From positions 1 through 34,700 of the forward strand of contig JAUYKG010000043.1 in NCBI GenBank assembly GCA_030700105.1: DNA of 34,700 nt, in the 5' to 3' direction. Below are positions 6,064 through 10,977 of this stretch, one piece after another. How positions within the stretch are numbered: the first letter of the stretch is position 1; every line of letters starts with the position of its first letter. Source of the DNA: Candidatus Veblenbacteria bacterium. Lineage in GTDB: Bacteria; Patescibacteriota; Patescibacteriia; Veblenbacterales; UBA10138. Made by a program: the position numbers and the translations under genes. The notes under the pieces are model-generated. The model did not search any database. It worked only from the letters and a program-made list of their open reading frames with translations, and was not told the DNA's origin.

Positions 6064-6138
6064 TCCGGGGTAGCTCAGCGGTAGAGCAGGTGCCTGTTAA
6101 GCACTTGGTCGTGGGTCCGATTCCCACCCCCGGAGCCA
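6064..6138 (+). tRNA. tRNA-Asn (anticodon GUU)
   Basis: A 75-nt cloverleaf. The acceptor TCCGGGG pairs with CCCCGGA. The D arm is GCTC-AGCGGTA-GAGC. The anticodon arm is GGTGC-CTGTTAA-GCACT, giving anticodon GTT. The T arm is GTGGG-TCCGATT-CCCAC. The discriminator G and an encoded CCA end at 6138. Its 3' end is the parent or homologue of several partial copies downstream. Confidence 0.96.
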
Positions 6139-6180
6139 TAACAAAGCGTGCCACCTTGTGTGGTGCGTTTTGTTATAGTT
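6139..6180 (+). terminator. Hairpin directly after tRNA-Asn
   Basis: A stem of about 16 bp with G-T pairs (6139-6154 with 6160-6175) begins at the base after CCA and is followed by AGTTTT. It is probably the tRNA terminator. A diverged version of the same tail-plus-hairpin pair recurs at 6310-6366. Confidence 0.65.
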
Positions 6181-6190
6181 TTGAGATAGT

Positions 6191-6291
6191 GGGAATCGAA
6201 GGGCGTGAGATAGCGAAGCGGAAAGCACGCGAGCAAGCGTAGCGTGCTGAGTGTAGCGCCCAGGCTTTTTGTCGGAGCAAAAAGGATTCCC
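6191..6291 (+). other. Nested inverted repeats of unknown function
   Basis: The closing arms GGGAATC (6191-6197) and GATTCCC (6285-6291) enclose GGGCG/CGCCC (6201-6205 with 6257-6261). Those enclose a perfect 7-bp hairpin AGCACGC/GCGTGCT (6224-6230 with 6242-6248). CTTTTT/AAAAAG forms a side hairpin at about 6264-6283. The segment could be a structured RNA or a recombination substrate. GATTCCC is also the tRNA-Asn T-arm sequence. No known RNA family is recognised. Confidence 0.4.
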
Positions 6292-6309
6292 TGCCCCGTA
6301 TAGCGGTGG

Positions 6310-6324
6310 CCACCCCCGGAGCCA
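6310..6324 (+). repeat. Copy of the tRNA-Asn 3' end
   Basis: CCACCCCCGGAGCCA is identical to tRNA-Asn 6124-6138. GATTCCC occurs about 18 nt further upstream, as if the T-arm sequence had been split by an insertion. Like the tRNA, the copy is followed at once by an A-rich hairpin arm. Confidence 0.7.
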
Positions 6325-6366
6325 AAAGAAAGCGCATCACTATTCGGTGGTGCGATTTCTTTTTTG
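6325..6366 (+). terminator. Terminator hairpin after tRNA-tail copy 1
   Basis: AGAAAGCGCATCAC pairs with GTGGTGCGATTTCT (one G-T pair, one mismatch) and is followed by a run of T. GAAAGCG and GGTGCG are shared with the hairpin after tRNA-Asn, so the two are probably related. Confidence 0.65.
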
Positions 6367-6377
6367 TTTGAGGCGGA

Positions 6378-6442
6378 GAAACTGCCAGTGGCAGTTTCGT
6401 CTGGATTCGAACGCCGGAGCGTGTTTTGTCAGCAGACAAAAC
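6378..6442 (+). repeat. Two strong hairpins ahead of tRNA-tail copy 2
   Basis: GAAACTGCC/GGCAGTTTC (6378-6386 with 6390-6398) is perfect over 9 bp, and GTTTTGTC/GACAAAAC (6423-6430 with 6435-6442) over 8 bp. A T-loop-like GGATTCGAAC lies between them. No reading frame explains these; they resemble the structured segment at 6191-6291 in density. Confidence 0.5.
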
Positions 6443-6455
6443 CGCGAGGCGGGCC

Positions 6456-6502
6456 GCCCGAGCCACAAGAAAATGGTCTAACCAAATTGGTCGGACTTTT
6501 TT
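6456..6502 (+). repeat. Decayed tRNA 3' end plus terminator-like hairpin, copy 2
   Basis: GCCCGAGCCA (6456-6465) resembles a tRNA acceptor end with CCA. It is followed by A-rich sequence and the hairpin GTCTAACCA/TGGTCGGAC (6476-6496, imperfect) with a run of six T. Confidence 0.5.
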
Positions 6503-6562
6503 CAAAGTGAAGTTTTTGAAGAAAATTTCTTTTATCCTTCATAAGTCTCATCTGGAGACAAA

Positions 6563-6590
6563 TTGACACGCCATTATGGACGTGTATAAT
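6563..6590 (+). promoter_or_regulatory. Consensus promoter with overlapping dyads
   Basis: A perfect TTGACA (6563-6568), 16-bp spacer and perfect TATAAT (6585-6590). ACACG (6566-6570) and CGTGT (6581-6585) form an inverted repeat across the spacer, with CCATTATGG inside. A further dyad TCGAC/GTCGA (6602-6616) lies just after the expected start. It drives the secreted-protein gene at 6672 with a leader of about 75 nt. Confidence 0.75.
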
Positions 6591-6671
6591 GACCACTCAG
6601 ATCGACGTGTGGTCGAAACGCCGACATGGAATGAAAAGTTAACATACTTATAACAACTAACTATATAATAT

Positions 6672-7523
6672 ATGAAAAAATTGTTAACATATGGAATTGG
6701 AGTTTTCGCTTTAGCATTAATGGTTGGAACCGTAGGCTCCGCACTTGCGAGCAGCCACTTTATTAGTCCTGATCCGTTCACCGCGACAGAGCTTAGTACA
6801 AATTGGGGAGCGGATCGAACGTATCCTACAGGTGGGGTGACATCAGTTACGGAATTTGGACGCACCAATGTGGCGCATATCGGAATCAATAGCTTATTAA
6901 CTGCTTCCGGAGGGTTCTATCGTACGGAGGGAATCAAAACCACTGGCGCGGAGGACTTCGGTACCGCCGTTCAGGTAGATCTCTACATCGACCCCGCCTG
7001 GGAAAACACAGCTGTGCGTGCAGGATTCTGGGTTGTAGGTTACGACGGGGATGTGCGACCTGGGGATGCGCCCTTTGGAGTCATTGAGTTTGTTAATAGT
7101 GAAGATTGCGACGCAGCAGATTGCAGTACTCACATAAGCAACAGACCCGACTATGAAGGCTTCCGTATTTTCGACGGTGAAACTGGATGGACGAATGTTA
7201 CCACAGCTTTCGAGTATGGTGAGTGGGTAACACTCGGCATTGAGCTTGACACCGAAGCGGGGGAATACATTTACTACATAAATGGTGAAGAAGTTGGTAC
7301 TGCTTCAGGAGGTGGAAGCTTCATCCGTGAGTTGTTCCTTAACAGCTATAACTATGGATTGGATGACTTTCCTACTCTCAATAGCGACAGTTATGCCGCT
7401 CATTGGCACGTGGGTCTTGTAGTTCCAACATCAAAGGATGAGTGTAAAGATGGTGGATGGGAGACATTTACCGATGTTACATTCAAGAATCAGGGAGCGT
7501 GTGTAAGTTACGTTAATCATTAA
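6672..7523 (+). CDS. Secreted lectin-like (concanavalin-fold) protein
   Basis: 283 residues. Signal peptide at 1-26 (MKKLLTYGIGVFALALMVG, cleavage near ALA-SS). The mature part reads as a beta-sandwich of the LamG/concanavalin type: VQVDLYIDPAWENTAVRAGFW, then FEYGEWVTLGIELD and GEYIYYINGEEVGT, the edge strands typical of carbohydrate-binding jelly rolls. The last 32 residues (TSKDECKDGGWETF, then FKNQGACVSYV) match a short Cys-containing tail that I recall from many secreted bacterial proteins (K-D-x-C-K-N/D-GGW, F-K-N-Q-G-x-C-V-S). Ligand unknown. The gene has a consensus promoter, is closed by a strong terminator, and lies in the AT-richer accessory stretch. No Shine-Dalgarno site is evident before the ATG. 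Confidence 0.85.
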   Translation: MKKLLTYGIGVFALALMVGTVGSALASSHFISPDPFTATELSTNWGADRTYPTGGVTSVTEFGRTNVAHIGINSLLTASGGFYRTEGIKTTGAEDFGTAVQVDLYIDPAWENTAVRAGFWVVGYDGDVRPGDAPFGVIEFVNSEDCDAADCSTHISNRPDYEGFRIFDGETGWTNVTTAFEYGEWVTLGIELDTEAGEYIYYINGEEVGTASGGGSFIRELFLNSYNYGLDDFPTLNSDSYAAHWHVGLVVPTSKDECKDGGWETFTDVTFKNQGACVSYVNH

Positions 7524-7544
7524 TAATAAAACTTTATACTTCCC

Positions 7545-7571
7545 AAAAACCGCCCTCTTGGGGCGGTTTTT
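7545..7571 (+). terminator. Intrinsic terminator after secreted lectin-like gene
   Basis: AAAAACCGCCC pairs with GGGCGGTTTTT across a short loop, ending in a T run. Its A and T arms allow it to act in both directions. Confidence 0.9.
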
Positions 7572-7579
7572 GTTTCAGT

Positions 7580-7614
7580 GAGGGCTCCGCTAGGAAAGAC
7601 CTAGCGGAGCCCTC
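7580..7614. repeat. Perfect 15-bp inverted repeat without T-tract
   Basis: The arms at 7580-7594 and 7600-7614 are exactly complementary (GAGGGCTCCGCTAGG and its complement) with loop AAAGA. No T-tract follows on either strand, so it is not an ordinary intrinsic terminator. It lies 9 bp after one. Confidence 0.7.
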
Positions 7615-7666
7615 AAGGTTCACAGATACATCCGTAAAGTTCACATAAACTAATTAGATTAGTTTT

Positions 7667-7702
7667 AAACAACTCATCGAGAAATCGGTGGGTTGTTTTT
7701 TT
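7667..7702 (+). terminator. Intrinsic terminator of unknown owner
   Basis: AACAACTCATCGA pairs with TCGGTGGGTTGTT (two G-T pairs) around loop GAAA, followed by a run of T. No intact gene lies between this and the previous terminator, so its gene has probably been lost. Confidence 0.75.
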
Positions 7703-7776
7703 GGTAAAATAAAAATAAATGAATGAAAAAAAATTAGACAACATGCAAGAGAAGCAATGGATTCCTTGCCGTCTGA

Positions 7777-7905
7777 ATTTGCCAAAAGATTGATGAAGCC
7801 AACAAAGAATTGGCGAAGAGCGACGAGGAGAAATTGAAAAGCAATTTTGATGGTGCAATTGACCATTACAAAAATGCCTGGAAGCATGCGCAAAAGGCAG
7901 GATAG
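7777..7905 (+). pseudogene. Remnant of the 3' end of a helical protein gene
   Basis: A 42-codon open stretch bounded upstream by an in-frame TGA. The translation ends in NFDGAIDHYKNAWKHAQKAG, a charged helical tail of the sort that closes many secreted repeat proteins (the A-I-x-H-Y-K-x-A-W-x-H-A pattern). A short ATG frame starting near 7719 (NEKKLDNMQEKQW) lies in a different frame directly upstream, which suggests a frameshift. No complete gene can be assembled. It is probably debris from insertion or deletion in the accessory stretch. Confidence 0.5.
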
Positions 7906-7917
7906 TTTACCGACCCA

Positions 7918-8343
7918 GTGGTTTTTCGACTGAACATAGTCAATTTAGGGTGTGCGACGGTCACCTACGACGGTAAATTTAAGGCAGTCGCTGGACAGAC
8001 TGGCCCCGGCGGTAAAGAAACTATCGGGACCGACGTCCACGGAGATATGAAAGGCGGATACCGGGCTACCTTTACGGGAACGCTCCTAACGAACCCGACA
8101 TGGCCGACCCACGGGAATGTGGGGACGGTTGATTACGGGTGCGACATTACTGGAGCAACGTGTCACTACGTGAGCTGGACGGACCAGTATTTCACTGGGG
8201 TCGCGAGCTTTGACCAACCATGGTGGGGAGCCATTACAATTCGTTCTACGCGACCGGAACACGGTAGCAGGAAACCCACTGTTTATTGGGTCGCAACAAA
8301 ACACGAAGTTCTACGCTTCGTGTTTTGTTTTTCCGTTAAGTGA
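7918..8343 (+). pseudogene. Probable 3' remnant of a secreted protein gene
   Basis: An open frame of 141 codons with only a GTG to start it, no ribosome binding site and no signal peptide. The core (YDGKFKAVAGQTGPGGK through DVHGDMKGGYRATFTGTL to VDYGCDITGATCHYVSW and YFTGVASFDQPWWG) reads like the last domain of an exported protein with a pair of Cys. After PWWG the other two forward frames carry the more protein-like text (SHYNSFYATG, then NTVAGNPLFIG), so the 3' end seems frameshifted. The final residues simply read through the terminator hairpin at 8295. I take it as a decayed gene; a short functional secreted protein is less likely. Confidence 0.5.
8295..8332 (+). terminator. Intrinsic terminator
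   Basis: A perfect 14-bp stem AACAAAACACGAAG/CTTCGTGTTTTGTT (8295-8308 with 8316-8329) followed by further T. It lies inside the frame of the preceding remnant, which supports the view that the true stop of that gene was upstream. Confidence 0.85.
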
Positions 8344-8428
8344 GAATTGAGCAAAAACCCAATAAATCTCAGTTCGATTACAGGCCACTTCTTTTTTGGC
8401 TAAAATAATTGATCTACTTGTTTTTTGG

Positions 8429-8434
8429 TATACT
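8429..8434 (+). promoter_or_regulatory. -10 element of the Ntn-hydrolase-like gene
   Basis: TATACT preceded by TTTGG, with no good -35 at 16-17 bp (TAATTG or AATTGA). Leader of about 25 nt to the ATG at 8466. Confidence 0.35.
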
Positions 8435-8465
8435 AAACTTAGTTAATAAATAACTAACTATTGTT

Positions 8466-9140
8466 ATGAGTTTGATACTAGCGGCGCTATGCAAAGACGA
8501 TATATGTGTTTGCGCCGATACAAGGTATGTCGACCGGAAATGGAACGGTGGCTATAAAGACGGTTTCGATAAAATATACAAGTTTGATTCTTGTCCTTTA
8601 ATTATTTTTAATCACGGGAATAATAAATTTGGAGAAAAATATTGGAGTGATTATTGTTTAGATTATGAGAGGTTGGGAAGATGGAAAGGGAGAAATTTGA
8701 AATGGATTAGCGAGGATTTTAAGGGTTATGTTCAAAATGCAGTTTTACAACAACTTAATTTCAATATGAAACAGTGGCCAGATGACTATAATGTCAGGGG
8801 ATCTGGATTTGTTGTGTGCGGAAAGAATATTCAAAATAATATACTCGAAATGTACGAATTTTTCTGGAAACCCCAGCCTGTATTACCAGGAATGTATCCA
8901 TGGAGTGGAATACATTTAAATGGTTTTGGAACGGGCTATGATATTTATTTAAAGAGTGACTTAAATAGCAAACCTGATAAGTTAGTCAATTGGAATGCTT
9001 TTAATCGAGGACAGATAAAAAGCGAGCTAGAAAGATTGTTTTCCGTAGCAAGGGAAAGTAAAAAAGCAAGGGAAAGGGAAGATTCCACGGCCGGAAAAGA
9101 GTTTTCTGACGACTTTATTATTAAATCAGTTATGGAGTAA
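8466..9140 (+). CDS. Proteasome-fold Ntn-hydrolase-like protein with Ser1
   Basis: 224 residues. The N-terminus MSLILAALCKDDICVCADTRY aligns without gaps to proteasome/HslV beta-type subunits. If the initiator Met is removed, Ser takes the place of the catalytic Thr1, Asp falls at position 17 and Arg at 19 (the ADxR motif), and the Lys of FDKIYKFD sits near the position of Lys33. A later GFGTGYD could be the glycine-rich turn of the fold. Known relatives are self-compartmentalising threonine peptidases, and CodW (HslV of Bacillus) is described as using an N-terminal Ser. The C-terminal 40 residues are highly charged. No ATPase partner is nearby, so the substrate and even the activity are unknown. 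Strongly AT-rich, in the accessory stretch; likely acquired. Confidence 0.6.
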   Translation: MSLILAALCKDDICVCADTRYVDRKWNGGYKDGFDKIYKFDSCPLIIFNHGNNKFGEKYWSDYCLDYERLGRWKGRNLKWISEDFKGYVQNAVLQQLNFNMKQWPDDYNVRGSGFVVCGKNIQNNILEMYEFFWKPQPVLPGMYPWSGIHLNGFGTGYDIYLKSDLNSKPDKLVNWNAFNRGQIKSELERLFSVARESKKAREREDSTAGKEFSDDFIIKSVME

Positions 9141-9250
9141 TTATAGTTAACAAACTAATTTTACTCTTTCTACTGAGGCCGCTGTTCCTACCATTGCAAT
9201 AAGAATTTAGCTAAGGTTAAACAAATTCATAAATCCAGCGAGAATAGCGG
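9141..9250 (+). other. AT-rich spacer with a 7-bp long-range dyad
   Basis: No gene seen. GGCCGCT (9177-9183) and AGCGGCC (9246-9252) are complementary and enclose 62 nt, a tRNA-like distance, but no D, anticodon or T arm can be drawn. Confidence 0.35.
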
Positions 9251-9302
9251 CCCCGGAGCCATGATATTTAAACCACCCGATTAGGGTGGTTGTTTGCTTT
9301 TA
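9251..9302 (+). repeat. tRNA 3'-end-like tail plus terminator, copy 3
   Basis: CCCCGGAGCCA (9251-9261) is identical to the last 11 nt of tRNA-Asn. It is followed by the hairpin AACCACCC-GATTA-GGGTGGTT (9271-9291) and a T-rich run. It lies between the Ntn-hydrolase-like gene and the P-loop gene. Confidence 0.65.
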
Positions 9303-9325
9303 AAATTAAATGCTAAACTAACTCT

Positions 9326-9856
9326 ATGAAAACAATTTTTATATATGGTGCTCCGGGTGTAGGTAAACTTACCGTGGCGAGGAGACTTTCAAATCTCACC
9401 AGCTTCAGTCTGCTTCACAACCATCTTCTTAATGATCTTGTGGAAACGGTATTTGAGTTCGGCACCAATGAATTTAGCCAGGCGGTCCGCAAATATCGTC
9501 TAGATTTATTGGAGCGGGCAGCGAGGGCAAAACATAAAGGCATCATCTTGACGTACGTATATGGCAAACCGGCGGACAAAAACTCTCTTAAGAGAATCGT
9601 ACGGCAAGCTAGGAAACATAGGGGTCAAATTCTATTTGTTCATCTAATCTGTGATAAGAAAGTATTATTGAAAAGGATAAAGAATCCTTCACGTAGCGTG
9701 TTTAGTAAGATAAAAACTCATGAAAAATTACATGATCTCATGAAAAGACATGATATATTTGCCGATGTTCCCTATCAACCCAACTTTATAATCGATAACA
9801 CCCACCTTTCTCCTATTAGAGCTGCTAGGTTAATTCGGAAGCGCTACCGAATTTAG
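9326..9856 (+). CDS. Small P-loop kinase-like protein
   Basis: 176 residues with an N-terminal Walker A motif GAPGVGKLT (residues 8-16). It resembles the shikimate kinase/AAA_33 class of small-molecule kinases and phosphotransferases, where GKLT or GKMT replaces GKST. ILTYVYGKPADK and ILFVHLICDKKVLLKRIKNPSR (the Walker B-like and lid regions, with the R-x-x-x-R pattern) follow the expected order. HNHLLNDLVE after the P-loop may be the substrate-binding part. It is cytosolic, with a Lys/Arg-rich C-terminus. The substrate cannot be named. It stands alone between two tRNA-tail copies, AT-richer than the flanking core genes, and has no obvious partner. Confidence 0.75.
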   Translation: MKTIFIYGAPGVGKLTVARRLSNLTSFSLLHNHLLNDLVETVFEFGTNEFSQAVRKYRLDLLERAARAKHKGIILTYVYGKPADKNSLKRIVRQARKHRGQILFVHLICDKKVLLKRIKNPSRSVFSKIKTHEKLHDLMKRHDIFADVPYQPNFIIDNTHLSPIRAARLIRKRYRI

Positions 9857-9879
9857 TTCTAATGCCCTCCACGACCCCG
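9855..9879 (+). repeat. 25-bp direct repeat, left copy (tRNA-tail-like)
   Basis: Identical over 25 bp to 10881-10905. It begins AGTTCTAATGCCC and ends GACCCCG, which looks like a mutated T-arm plus acceptor 3' strand of a tRNA gene. The two copies bracket the ferric-reductase-like gene. The left copy overlaps the stop of the P-loop gene by two bases. Confidence 0.85.
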
Positions 9880-9887
9880 GGGCTAAA

Positions 9888-9922
9888 AACAAAGAATCGA
9901 GAAAAATTCTCGATTCTTTGTT
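9888..9922. terminator. Bidirectional intrinsic terminator
   Basis: A perfect 16-bp stem (9888-9903 with 9907-9922) around AAA. On the minus strand it is followed by a T run, serving the ferric-reductase-like gene. On the plus strand it closes the P-loop gene. Confidence 0.88.
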
Positions 9923-9937
9923 AATTGATAAGCAAGC

Positions 9938-10747
9938 TTATTTAATGAATTGCCTTCCCCAAATAAACGTCGCCAGATAAATGACTGGCAAAAAAAATAC
10001 GCAGCTATACCACACTATTTTACCAACTTTTATGTTTATAGCTTCGGCTATCCGTACAACAATTACCACTATCATAAACCAAGCTATCAGAATACCGAGC
10101 CCGGGCCATTCCGGACGTACCAACTGTGTACTCCCGCCTTGGCGGTACCATTCAATCCAGCCCGGCACTTTCATTATACCCACGTGTAGCGCTACCGCCG
10201 CAAGTGCAATGCGAATTCCCCAACGCTGCCAAAACCACCAACGATGAGCGGTCATGCGTTGTATAGCTCGATTATTGGAGATGGCAAAAATAGCCATTAG
10301 TACCACAATGCCTATTAAACCAAAAAGGAAAGGCCATTTTCCAGTTGTGAAATAGCGTTCCAAGGGGAAACGGCCTGGTAGAAAAAAAAGTGATGACACC
10401 GTATGCATCAATGCGAAGAAAAAAGCCATTATGCCTAGTTCTTTACGGAACCTTAAGTACTTATCAAACATATTAAACATGCGGCCTAACGGCCCCAGGA
10501 GAAGCACTATGCCAAGCAATACAGCGGCTACACCAGCGAACGCTTTATTGATGATAAATAAATCGTAAAACCCCCGTCGGCCATAGAGATACACTGAAAA
10601 GGCGACAAACTGCACAATGGCCAGTCCAAGCGCCACGCCGTATTCATACATGCGCTCATGCCAATAAGCGGCTGAGTGTTGTTGAATTCTCTCAAGTGAT
10701 GATTCAGATAGCACTTGCGGTTGCGAGTTATTAGGCGTATTTTGCAT
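9938..10747 (-). CDS. Ferric-reductase-like transmembrane protein
   Basis: 269 residues from the ATG at 10747; a TTG four codons upstream (10759) is possible but less likely, and neither has a Shine-Dalgarno site. About seven hydrophobic spans follow a polar N-terminus of about 30 residues. The core resembles the ferric-reductase/MsrQ cytochrome b fold. Candidate haem ligands are the His of FALMHTVSSLFF and those of MTAHRWWFWQRWGIR and ALHVGIMK. There is no FAD/NAD(P)H domain, so electrons would have to come from a partner such as MsrP (not present) or the quinone pool. It runs opposite to its neighbours and is bracketed by the 25-bp direct repeats, suggesting a separately acquired unit. Confidence 0.8.
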   Translation of the reverse strand: MQNTPNNSQPQVLSESSLERIQQHSAAYWHERMYEYGVALGLAIVQFVAFSVYLYGRRGFYDLFIINKAFAGVAAVLLGIVLLLGPLGRMFNMFDKYLRFRKELGIMAFFFALMHTVSSLFFLPGRFPLERYFTTGKWPFLFGLIGIVVLMAIFAISNNRAIQRMTAHRWWFWQRWGIRIALAAVALHVGIMKVPGWIEWYRQGGSTQLVRPEWPGLGILIAWFMIVVIVVRIAEAINIKVGKIVWYSCVFFLPVIYLATFIWGRQFIK

Positions 10748-10759
10748 AGGATAAGGCAA

Positions 10760-10880
10760 AAAATTAATCTCATCTAAATCATATCAGAAAATCATGGCAT
10801 CAGCCATGCGCACAAATACTTTCAGGTAAAATAGTTACAAAACTTGCGTTACGTTTTGTCTCTCTTATTCAACATACATA
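10760..10880. other. Upstream region of the ferric-reductase-like gene
   Basis: AT-rich, no gene. It contains ATGGC/GCCAT (about 10795-10807) and a hairpin ACAAAAC/GTTTTGT (10837-10843 with 10853-10859), whose sequence resembles the A-rich arms of the tRNA-tail hairpins. Confidence 0.35.
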
Positions 10881-10905
10881 AGTTCTAATGCCCTCCACGA
10901 CCCCG
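10881..10905 (+). repeat. 25-bp direct repeat, right copy (tRNA-tail-like)
   Basis: Exact copy of 9855-9879, 1026 bp away. It is followed by AGCCTTAACAAAAC, the start of a partly decayed hairpin (about 10910-10950, AACAAAAC pairing with GTTTTGTT). This is the same tail-plus-hairpin order seen after tRNA-Asn. Confidence 0.85.
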
Positions 10906-10977
10906 AGCCTTAACAAAACATGCCTCCCCATATGGCGCGCGTTTTGTTATTGTTATGTAGCCAAATAGTAGCCCCAG

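Follow-up and report, generated by a model that had tools for sequence, protein, structure and literature searches.

The DNA considered here (the window: 34,700 nucleotides of contig JAUYKG010000043.1, assembly GCA_030700105.1, from a Candidatus Veblenbacteria bacterium) is contig C39 of an 811-kb genome in 47 contigs. Behind its tRNA-Asn gene lies a small folded element that closes with a copy of the 3' end of that gene, and further downstream follows a ladder of accessory genes. The features next to the tRNA gene are the following.

6064..6138 (+): tRNA-Asn(GTT) gene with encoded CCA, the target gene (ARAGORN; Rfam RF00005, 68 bits)
6139..6175 (+): terminator-like hairpin no. 1, separating tRNA-Asn from the element (fold, -21.3 kcal/mol)
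6189..6197 (+): 5' arm of the element, GTGGGAATC, complementary to the 3' strand of the tRNA T-loop/T-stem, GATTCCCAC (sequence; covariation of the outer stem in 85 members)
6198..6291 (+): conserved core of type 1, consisting of GAA, arm A, arm B and the 3' arm (models R1 and R2, fold)
6292..6309 (+): 18-nucleotide insert within the tail copy, a degenerate form of a TGCC...GGCAGG palindrome (comparison between elements)
6310..6324 (+): copy of the tRNA-Asn 3' end, identical at 15 of 15 positions (tail match)
6325..6365 (+): terminator-like hairpin no. 2, weakly similar to hairpin no. 1
6372..6465 (+): second structured unit, different, with the diverged tail CGCCCGAGCCA at its end (fold, -44.3 kcal/mol; tail 9/11)
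6466..6505 (+): third hairpin, with a T run (fold)

The segment 6189-6324 belongs to a family of structured elements of 52-110 nucleotides (nt). In this family an outer stem complementary to the T-loop and T-stem of the upstream tRNA is combined with two conserved arms (GGGCGC..GCGCCC and CT..GUCGGAGC..AG), followed by an exact copy of 15-23 nt of the 3' end of that tRNA (the tail); the 5' arm is complementary to tRNA positions of about 57-63. Because the element itself ends in a tail copy, the target tRNA stays whole. The core of the window (6189-6291) reads GTGGGAATC-GAA-GGGCGT...GCGCCC-AGG-CTTTTTG(TCGGAG)CAAAAAG-GATTCCC, with arm A at 6201-6206/6256-6261, arm B at 6265-6284 and the 3' arm GATTCCC at 6285-6291. 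It is matched by covariance model R1 (6191-6291, 91.7 bits) and by model R2 (68.7 bits), neither of which matches the unit 6372-6465. Alignment of hairpin 6325-6365 with hairpin 6139-6175 gives a score of 22, the 99% point of mismatched pairs. A preliminary description of the window, made from the sequence alone, had pointed to the tails and their hairpins and had overlooked this three-helix core, which is the real signal.

The fold is supported by covariation. Ten type 1 cores, aligned with MAFFT without a model, keep 99% of the pairs and contain 19 two-sided changes against 4.9 after shuffling, and none of 500 shuffles reaches the score. In an alignment of 85 distinct members, which was fitted to the model and hence is biased towards it, 213 two-sided changes are present versus 46.9 after shuffling and the covariation score is 0.404 versus 0.161 (sd 0.007), with slid controls below 0.08. 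The tRNA-sense strand yields the better fold in 75 of 83 elements, and the inner helices hold 20 G.T and 3 A.C pairs (p=0.0005), a wobble bias that is missing from the outer stem (18:16). Since folding favours the sense strand and the inner helices tolerate G.T and not A.C, the functional form is probably a single strand, either RNA or the single-stranded DNA (ssDNA) of the tRNA-sense strand. Rfam 15 gave no match within 6139-6520 at E-values up to 5; a known RNA family was discarded, the other loci having produced only tRNA plus weak chance or tRNA-derived matches.

Three layouts can be told apart: type 1 as in the window, type 2 as behind tRNA-Arg and tRNA-Lys on contig C36 and tRNA-Pro on C24, and looser hairpin units as at 6372-6465 and on C41. 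Larger core types of about 100-150 nt, outside the coverage of the models, lie behind the same tails at L099, L105 and, 3' of the first core, L057; those of L099 and L105 carry the motifs GCGGCCTGCGACCGA and GAGAGTTGTAGGC. A palindrome of about 18-26 nt, TGCCTGCCGGCAGGCAGG, interrupts several tail copies at one and the same position and is also found in the loop of one arm B (window 6292-6309; units C36:15618 and C33:35178; L067, L107, L109 and L111); it would be a second tiny palindromic insert.

The same layout recurs in the own genome behind a second tRNA-Asn (C9), behind tRNA-His, -Arg, -Lys and -Pro on C36 and behind tRNA-Pro on C24 and C41, and the tail of each unit is a copy from its own upstream tRNA. 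The preliminary description had proposed to search the rest of the genome for such units, and for part of the tRNA genes they were found: a tail copy of 12-14 out of 14 positions lies within 190 nt at 9 of 41 genes, and the others reach at most 11/14, which is background. An apparent tenth case, tRNA-Met, was dropped as the copy proved to be a neighbouring tRNA gene. With the covariance models, the E-values of which are rough, the family could be followed much further. R1 has matches in 41 of 286 genomes of the class, among them records of Candidatus Uhrbacteria and Parcubacteria, with Candidatus Kerfeldbacteria records among the relatives of the same family. In a survey of the phylum with R2 eight sampled genomes outside the class match, most with the same layout, and the conserved loop motifs are seen across the phylum. 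Viral contigs contained no match to the core, phages only the tRNA itself and plasmids nothing; an origin from phage, plasmid or virus was set aside on account of the missing core matches in viral contigs and plasmids.

The coupling to tRNA genes is tight. A tRNA end predicted by ARAGORN lies within 110 nt upstream of 64 of the 83 elements (median 52 nt), representing 17 isotypes, and the elements share a tail of at least 11 nt (58/64) or at least 20 nt (37/64) with that tRNA; the median is 20 nt, as compared to 6 nt for a control tail from another isotype. The elements without a near upstream tRNA are mostly second tandem copies, units at contig ends or behind split tRNA genes, and a displaced unit. 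In a single case (L123 1719-2108, G044) the element follows a transfer-messenger RNA (tmRNA) gene, and the target is therefore the T-arm with the CCA end rather than tRNA identity. Two target tRNA-Asn genes, L057 (G002:C67) 516-1109 and L097 (G055:C26), are interrupted in the anticodon loop by group I introns of about 520 nt; the one of G002 matches RF00028 (49.7 bits, E 1.3e-11), and the one of G055 was recognised by sequence only.

An Arg-Lys-Pro-Phe-Gly tRNA array that is conserved in the family was compared between the own genome and seven relatives (8 genera) and has filled as well as empty sites behind Arg, Lys and Pro. Behind tRNA-Pro a type 1 element is present in G000 and G004, and G003, G005 and G007 have only the native spacer of about 30 nt, accompanied in places by remnants of tRNA-Phe copies. 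Behind tRNA-Lys each of three genomes has an element of a different kind and two genomes have none; behind tRNA-Arg type 2 is found in three genomes and two are empty. At the filled sites the native post-tRNA spacer follows the second tail. The expectation of the preliminary description that relatives would have or lack the segments as whole units is thus borne out in orthologous arrays. In the same arrays an intact tRNA-Phe gene sits inside an older tRNA-Phe copy, of which 5' and 3' remains are left on either side (L041 11244-11470 on C36, L059 3582-3800 and L226); the intact gene is flanked by an inverted repeat, and the acceptor stem of the inner gene differs in G004 and G005.

Moreover, the cores are alike by genome and not by tRNA. 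Of 73 cores, 23 have their closest counterpart within their own genome (expectation 2.5), in no case behind a tRNA of the same isoacceptor. In G004 one and the same core stands behind tRNA-Lys and tRNA-Pro with different arms (GGGACTC/GAGTCCC versus GGAATTT/AAATCCC). The direct repeat extends beyond the tail in 15 of 51 loci, mostly through the hairpin or terminator, which is what duplicating the tail together with the terminator would produce. Tandem units occur at L112, L114, L126, L131 and L132. T-stem mismatches are equally rare in tRNAs with and without copies (6/74 versus 11/114). This equal integrity argues against tails imported from other tRNAs, and tail swapping by incoming elements was rejected accordingly; one odd T-stem is left, that of tRNA-Asn in G002 (GTGGG/CCCTC).

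A partner enzyme was sought by means of single Pfam families. As the preliminary description had stated, the window holds no integrase. It had suggested looking for a tyrosine recombinase elsewhere; the genome has just one (PF00589), which is Xer-like and lies next to a gene that we take to be that of ribosomal protein S15, and none lies within the units. Carrier genomes contain 1-3 PF00589 genes, and as several have a single one, a tyrosine integrase was dismissed as partner. The Y1 transposase is absent from G000, G002, G004, G152 and G244, and reverse transcriptase from G000, G002, G055, G152, G244, G156 and G225, so that neither an IS200 or REP-associated tyrosine transposase (RAYT) system nor a retroelement similar to short interspersed elements qualifies. 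No Cas1 gene was noticed beside the units looked at, though no search was aimed at it. A large serine recombinase of 510 amino acids overlaps the end of tRNA-Met in the own genome (L036, C33:30000-44604), where it belongs to an integrative island of about 9 kb (L036 5179-14406) with nuclease and HD-domain genes and its own tRNA-Arg. At the far end of the island the sequence reads CTACCA, followed by the native terminator and core unit, which means that the island split tRNA-Met from its element; the recombinase was therefore rejected as the source of the core, the island ending at CTACCA and having merely displaced an existing unit by 9 kb.

We favour, with somewhat more belief than doubt, the view that Patescibacteria harbour a family of mobile elements, small and non-autonomous, which settle directly behind tRNA and tmRNA genes, and that 6189-6324 is an intact representative. 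Such a family of tiny tRNA-seeking elements is apparently undescribed, and our literature search found no publication on them. Insertion would duplicate the stretch of the target between T-loop and CCA end, in many cases including the terminator, to give the order tail, terminator, about 15 nt, core, tail, terminator. The repeat begins at T-loop position ~56-57, the inserted part being the ~15 nt, the 5' arm and the core. Two nicks or replication switches, one in the T-loop and one behind the terminator, could yield the observed layout. Drift does not explain the matching of the 5' arm, because near-identical cores bear different arms. The arm might be re-matched to a new target through copying at insertion or through template switching in a quasi-palindrome, a process that is reported to create and maintain hairpins (PMC8794818). 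Recombination between two tails would then lead either to tandem amplification or to clean removal of a unit. Host recombination or replication may act as the mover, since several carriers lack an IS200-type transposase and reverse transcriptase. In a bolder version, which we offer tentatively and would not bet on, the elements form a new site-specific class that targets the T-arm common to all tRNAs and tmRNA, copies the T-stem of the target into its outer stem so that one core fits any tRNA, and travels in the form of a folded single strand, either ssDNA or RNA, with no enzyme encoded by the element.

The main rival to mobility is a selected RNA function, which we regard as rather improbable, though it deserves serious attention. 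The core and tail would be transcribed with the tRNA operon or by terminator read-through and take part in the maturation of tRNA 3' ends or function as a sponge or small RNA, selection at tRNA loci preserving them and gene conversion keeping them alike. The strong covariation, the wobble bias of the sense strand, the loop motifs conserved across the phylum, the steady median spacing of 52 nt and the elements within tRNA operons that lack terminators all fit such a role. Most elements, however, stand behind a terminator without room for a promoter, and they are missing from most genomes, while in sister genera the majority of the orthologous tRNAs lack them; the occurrence of unrelated types behind one tRNA-Lys and the lack of a tie to isotype are equally hard to reconcile with it, and neither tandem arrays nor a tail duplicated through the terminator are needed for an RNA. 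The preliminary description had instead proposed that site-specific islands, with an integrase of their own, serially enter and leave at the tRNA 3' end; on this view the cores would be parts of attachment sites. Its notion of repeated insertion at the tail survives in so far as insertion adjoining the tRNA duplicates the 3' end, and tail-plus-terminator copies do bound accessory genes in the window and in two relatives (G007 L068 and G001 L058); the displacement of a core unit by 9 kb at tRNA-Met is also in its favour. Nevertheless we consider it unlikely that the tails are scars of such islands: genome-wide, most tail copies close a conserved, cargo-free structured element of 52-110 nt, and most units measure about 100-180 nt. 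In addition, the genome and some other carriers have only the one Xer-like recombinase, the T-stems are not chimeric and the serine-recombinase island ends without a core. The two alternatives offered in that description fared differently. A decayed tRNA array leaves the phylum-wide core unexplained, whereas a mobile module of tail plus terminator comes close, except that the conserved module is the folded core preceding the tail. Error-prone replication at hairpin-rich tRNA loci, with tandem duplication of tail and terminator and palindromes arising by template switching, would dispense with a mobile element altogether. The other partial tRNA copies and the nested tRNA-Phe gene in the same arrays are in keeping with it, as is the creation and maintenance of hairpins by template switching (PMC8794818). 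A 66-nt core with conserved loops that is common to classes and stands behind two tRNAs cannot arise independently, which makes this very improbable as a full account; it may still explain the matching of the arms.

Several points weigh against mobility. The comparison of filled and empty sites is one between genera or species and not between strains, and no transposition event or circular form was seen. The shuffle of nearest neighbours ignores relatedness, and tRNA genes missed by ARAGORN (the intron-split tRNA-Asn) were unlabelled for isoacceptor in it; gene conversion between elements could mimic the spread of cores within a genome. The loop motifs and the strand bias are also expected of a selected RNA, carriers make up only 1 in 7 genomes of the class at this threshold, and no mobilising enzyme was identified in a survey that did not include Cas1 or serine recombinases.

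Behind the tRNA gene tyrT of E. coli lie tandem repeats of 178 bp (rtT RNA), each containing the last bases of the tRNA. This is the nearest analogue known to us, the likeness being precisely these tandem repeats with the last tRNA bases. It is, however, a single E. coli locus, whereas the present family is spread over many tRNAs of a phylum and has a three-helix core with tRNA-matched arms. A conserved core with target-matched arms is known neither from the tyrT repeats nor from casposons or integrative elements. The latter (integrative and conjugative elements, integrative and mobilizable elements, prophages) target the T-loop/3' end of tRNA genes, leave the tRNA intact and produce a partial copy at the far end (PMC9897764). 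As in tyrosine-integrase elements, the far end bears a direct repeat that is identical to the 3' part of the tRNA, but the present units of ~100-180 nt encode no integrase, mostly carry no cargo and duplicate the tail of the target itself; an incoming 3' part, which would give chimeric T-stems, is not borne out by the mismatch counts (6/74 versus 11/114). Casposons insert at tRNA 3' ends with a target duplication of 14-15 bp, which in M. mazei takes in no more than the last 4 bp of the tRNA gene (PMC6977970). They are kilobase-sized, with Cas1 and inverted repeats, whereas our elements are small and have a duplication that starts in the T-loop and runs for 15-23 nt or through the terminator. 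Repetitive extragenic palindromic (REP)/RAYT repeats and palindromic repeats resembling miniature inverted-repeat transposable elements are likewise short, non-autonomous, structured and multi-copy, yet the present family is strictly tied to tRNA tails, has arms that vary with the target and occurs in several carriers without Y1 transposase. Finally, integron attC sites are imperfect hairpins of similar size with a strand-specific fold, a variable apical stem and a possible cassette array; the elements described here are anchored on tRNA tails and have two arms instead of one long hairpin. No attC-type core sites were recognised by eye, and an integron integrase was not specifically searched for (the PF00589 gene is the single Xer-like one).

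If the elements are indeed mobile, Patescibacteria carry undescribed tRNA-targeted elements that keep the tRNA intact and adapt a stem to each target, and that mark the loci where accessory genes build up in very small genomes. They would also provide sequence-defined sites for tracing the recombination machinery in bacteria that hardly lend themselves to genetic work. Should the cores be functional RNAs, they would represent a new family of structured RNAs with a link to tRNA loci. In both cases many of the partial tRNA copies in these genomes would be accounted for by the motif.

The ladder of accessory DNA continues to 10.9 kb and contains the following features.

8466..9140 (+): accessory gene of unknown family (homologue of 41% identity beside an element in G007)
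9251..9261 (+): exact 11-nt tRNA tail copy, followed by terminator hairpin 9271-9291 (tail match, fold)
9326..9856 (+): AAA/kinase-like accessory gene (Pfam AAA_18)
9855..9879 (+): left copy of an exact 25-nt direct repeat with hairpin, not a tRNA-Asn tail (repeat search, fold)
9938..10759 (-): gene of a ferric-reductase-like membrane protein, framed by the 25-nt repeat (Pfam PF01794)
10881..10905 (+): right copy of the 25-nt direct repeat with hairpin (repeat search, fold)

The preliminary description had read a series of tails of tRNA-Asn or a related tRNA into this region. The exact copies of 15 nt (6310-6324) and 11 nt (9251-9261) are both present, four tail matches with at most one mismatch occur in the window where 0.78 are expected (none of 100 shuffles reaches four), and folding finds a hairpin 3' of every site it had named. 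The copy at 6455-6465 is weak: it has 2 mismatches in 11, a level that about 15 unrelated places in the window reach as well, and the sole argument in its favour is that it lies within a structured unit that has a terminator. The sites at 9855 and 10881 are not tRNA-Asn tails; together they form an exact direct repeat of 25 nt (9855-9879/10881-10905), which no tRNA tail of the genome was seen to match and of which the genome has no further copy even when 3 mismatches are allowed. Own-tail matches beyond the elements are few (4 exact versus 0.37 expected, three of them within 310 nt), and no integrase or attachment (att) site was identified in the accessory segments. It is plausible that the ladder represents cargo DNA gained at the same hot spot. 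In G001 (L058) a copy of tail plus terminator lies 4.1 kb behind tRNA-Ser, past genes for a PIF1 helicase, a pRiA4b ORF-3-like protein and a Fic protein. In G007 the homologue of 8466-9140 and a PIN-domain gene are enclosed by a duplicated terminator and leader, and the element upstream of that homologue has a tail of tRNA-Ser type. The products of 8466-9140 and L068 629-1285, for which no Pfam or PHROG match was obtained, form an uncharacterised family of 218-224 amino acids that is accessory at tRNA tails in two genera.

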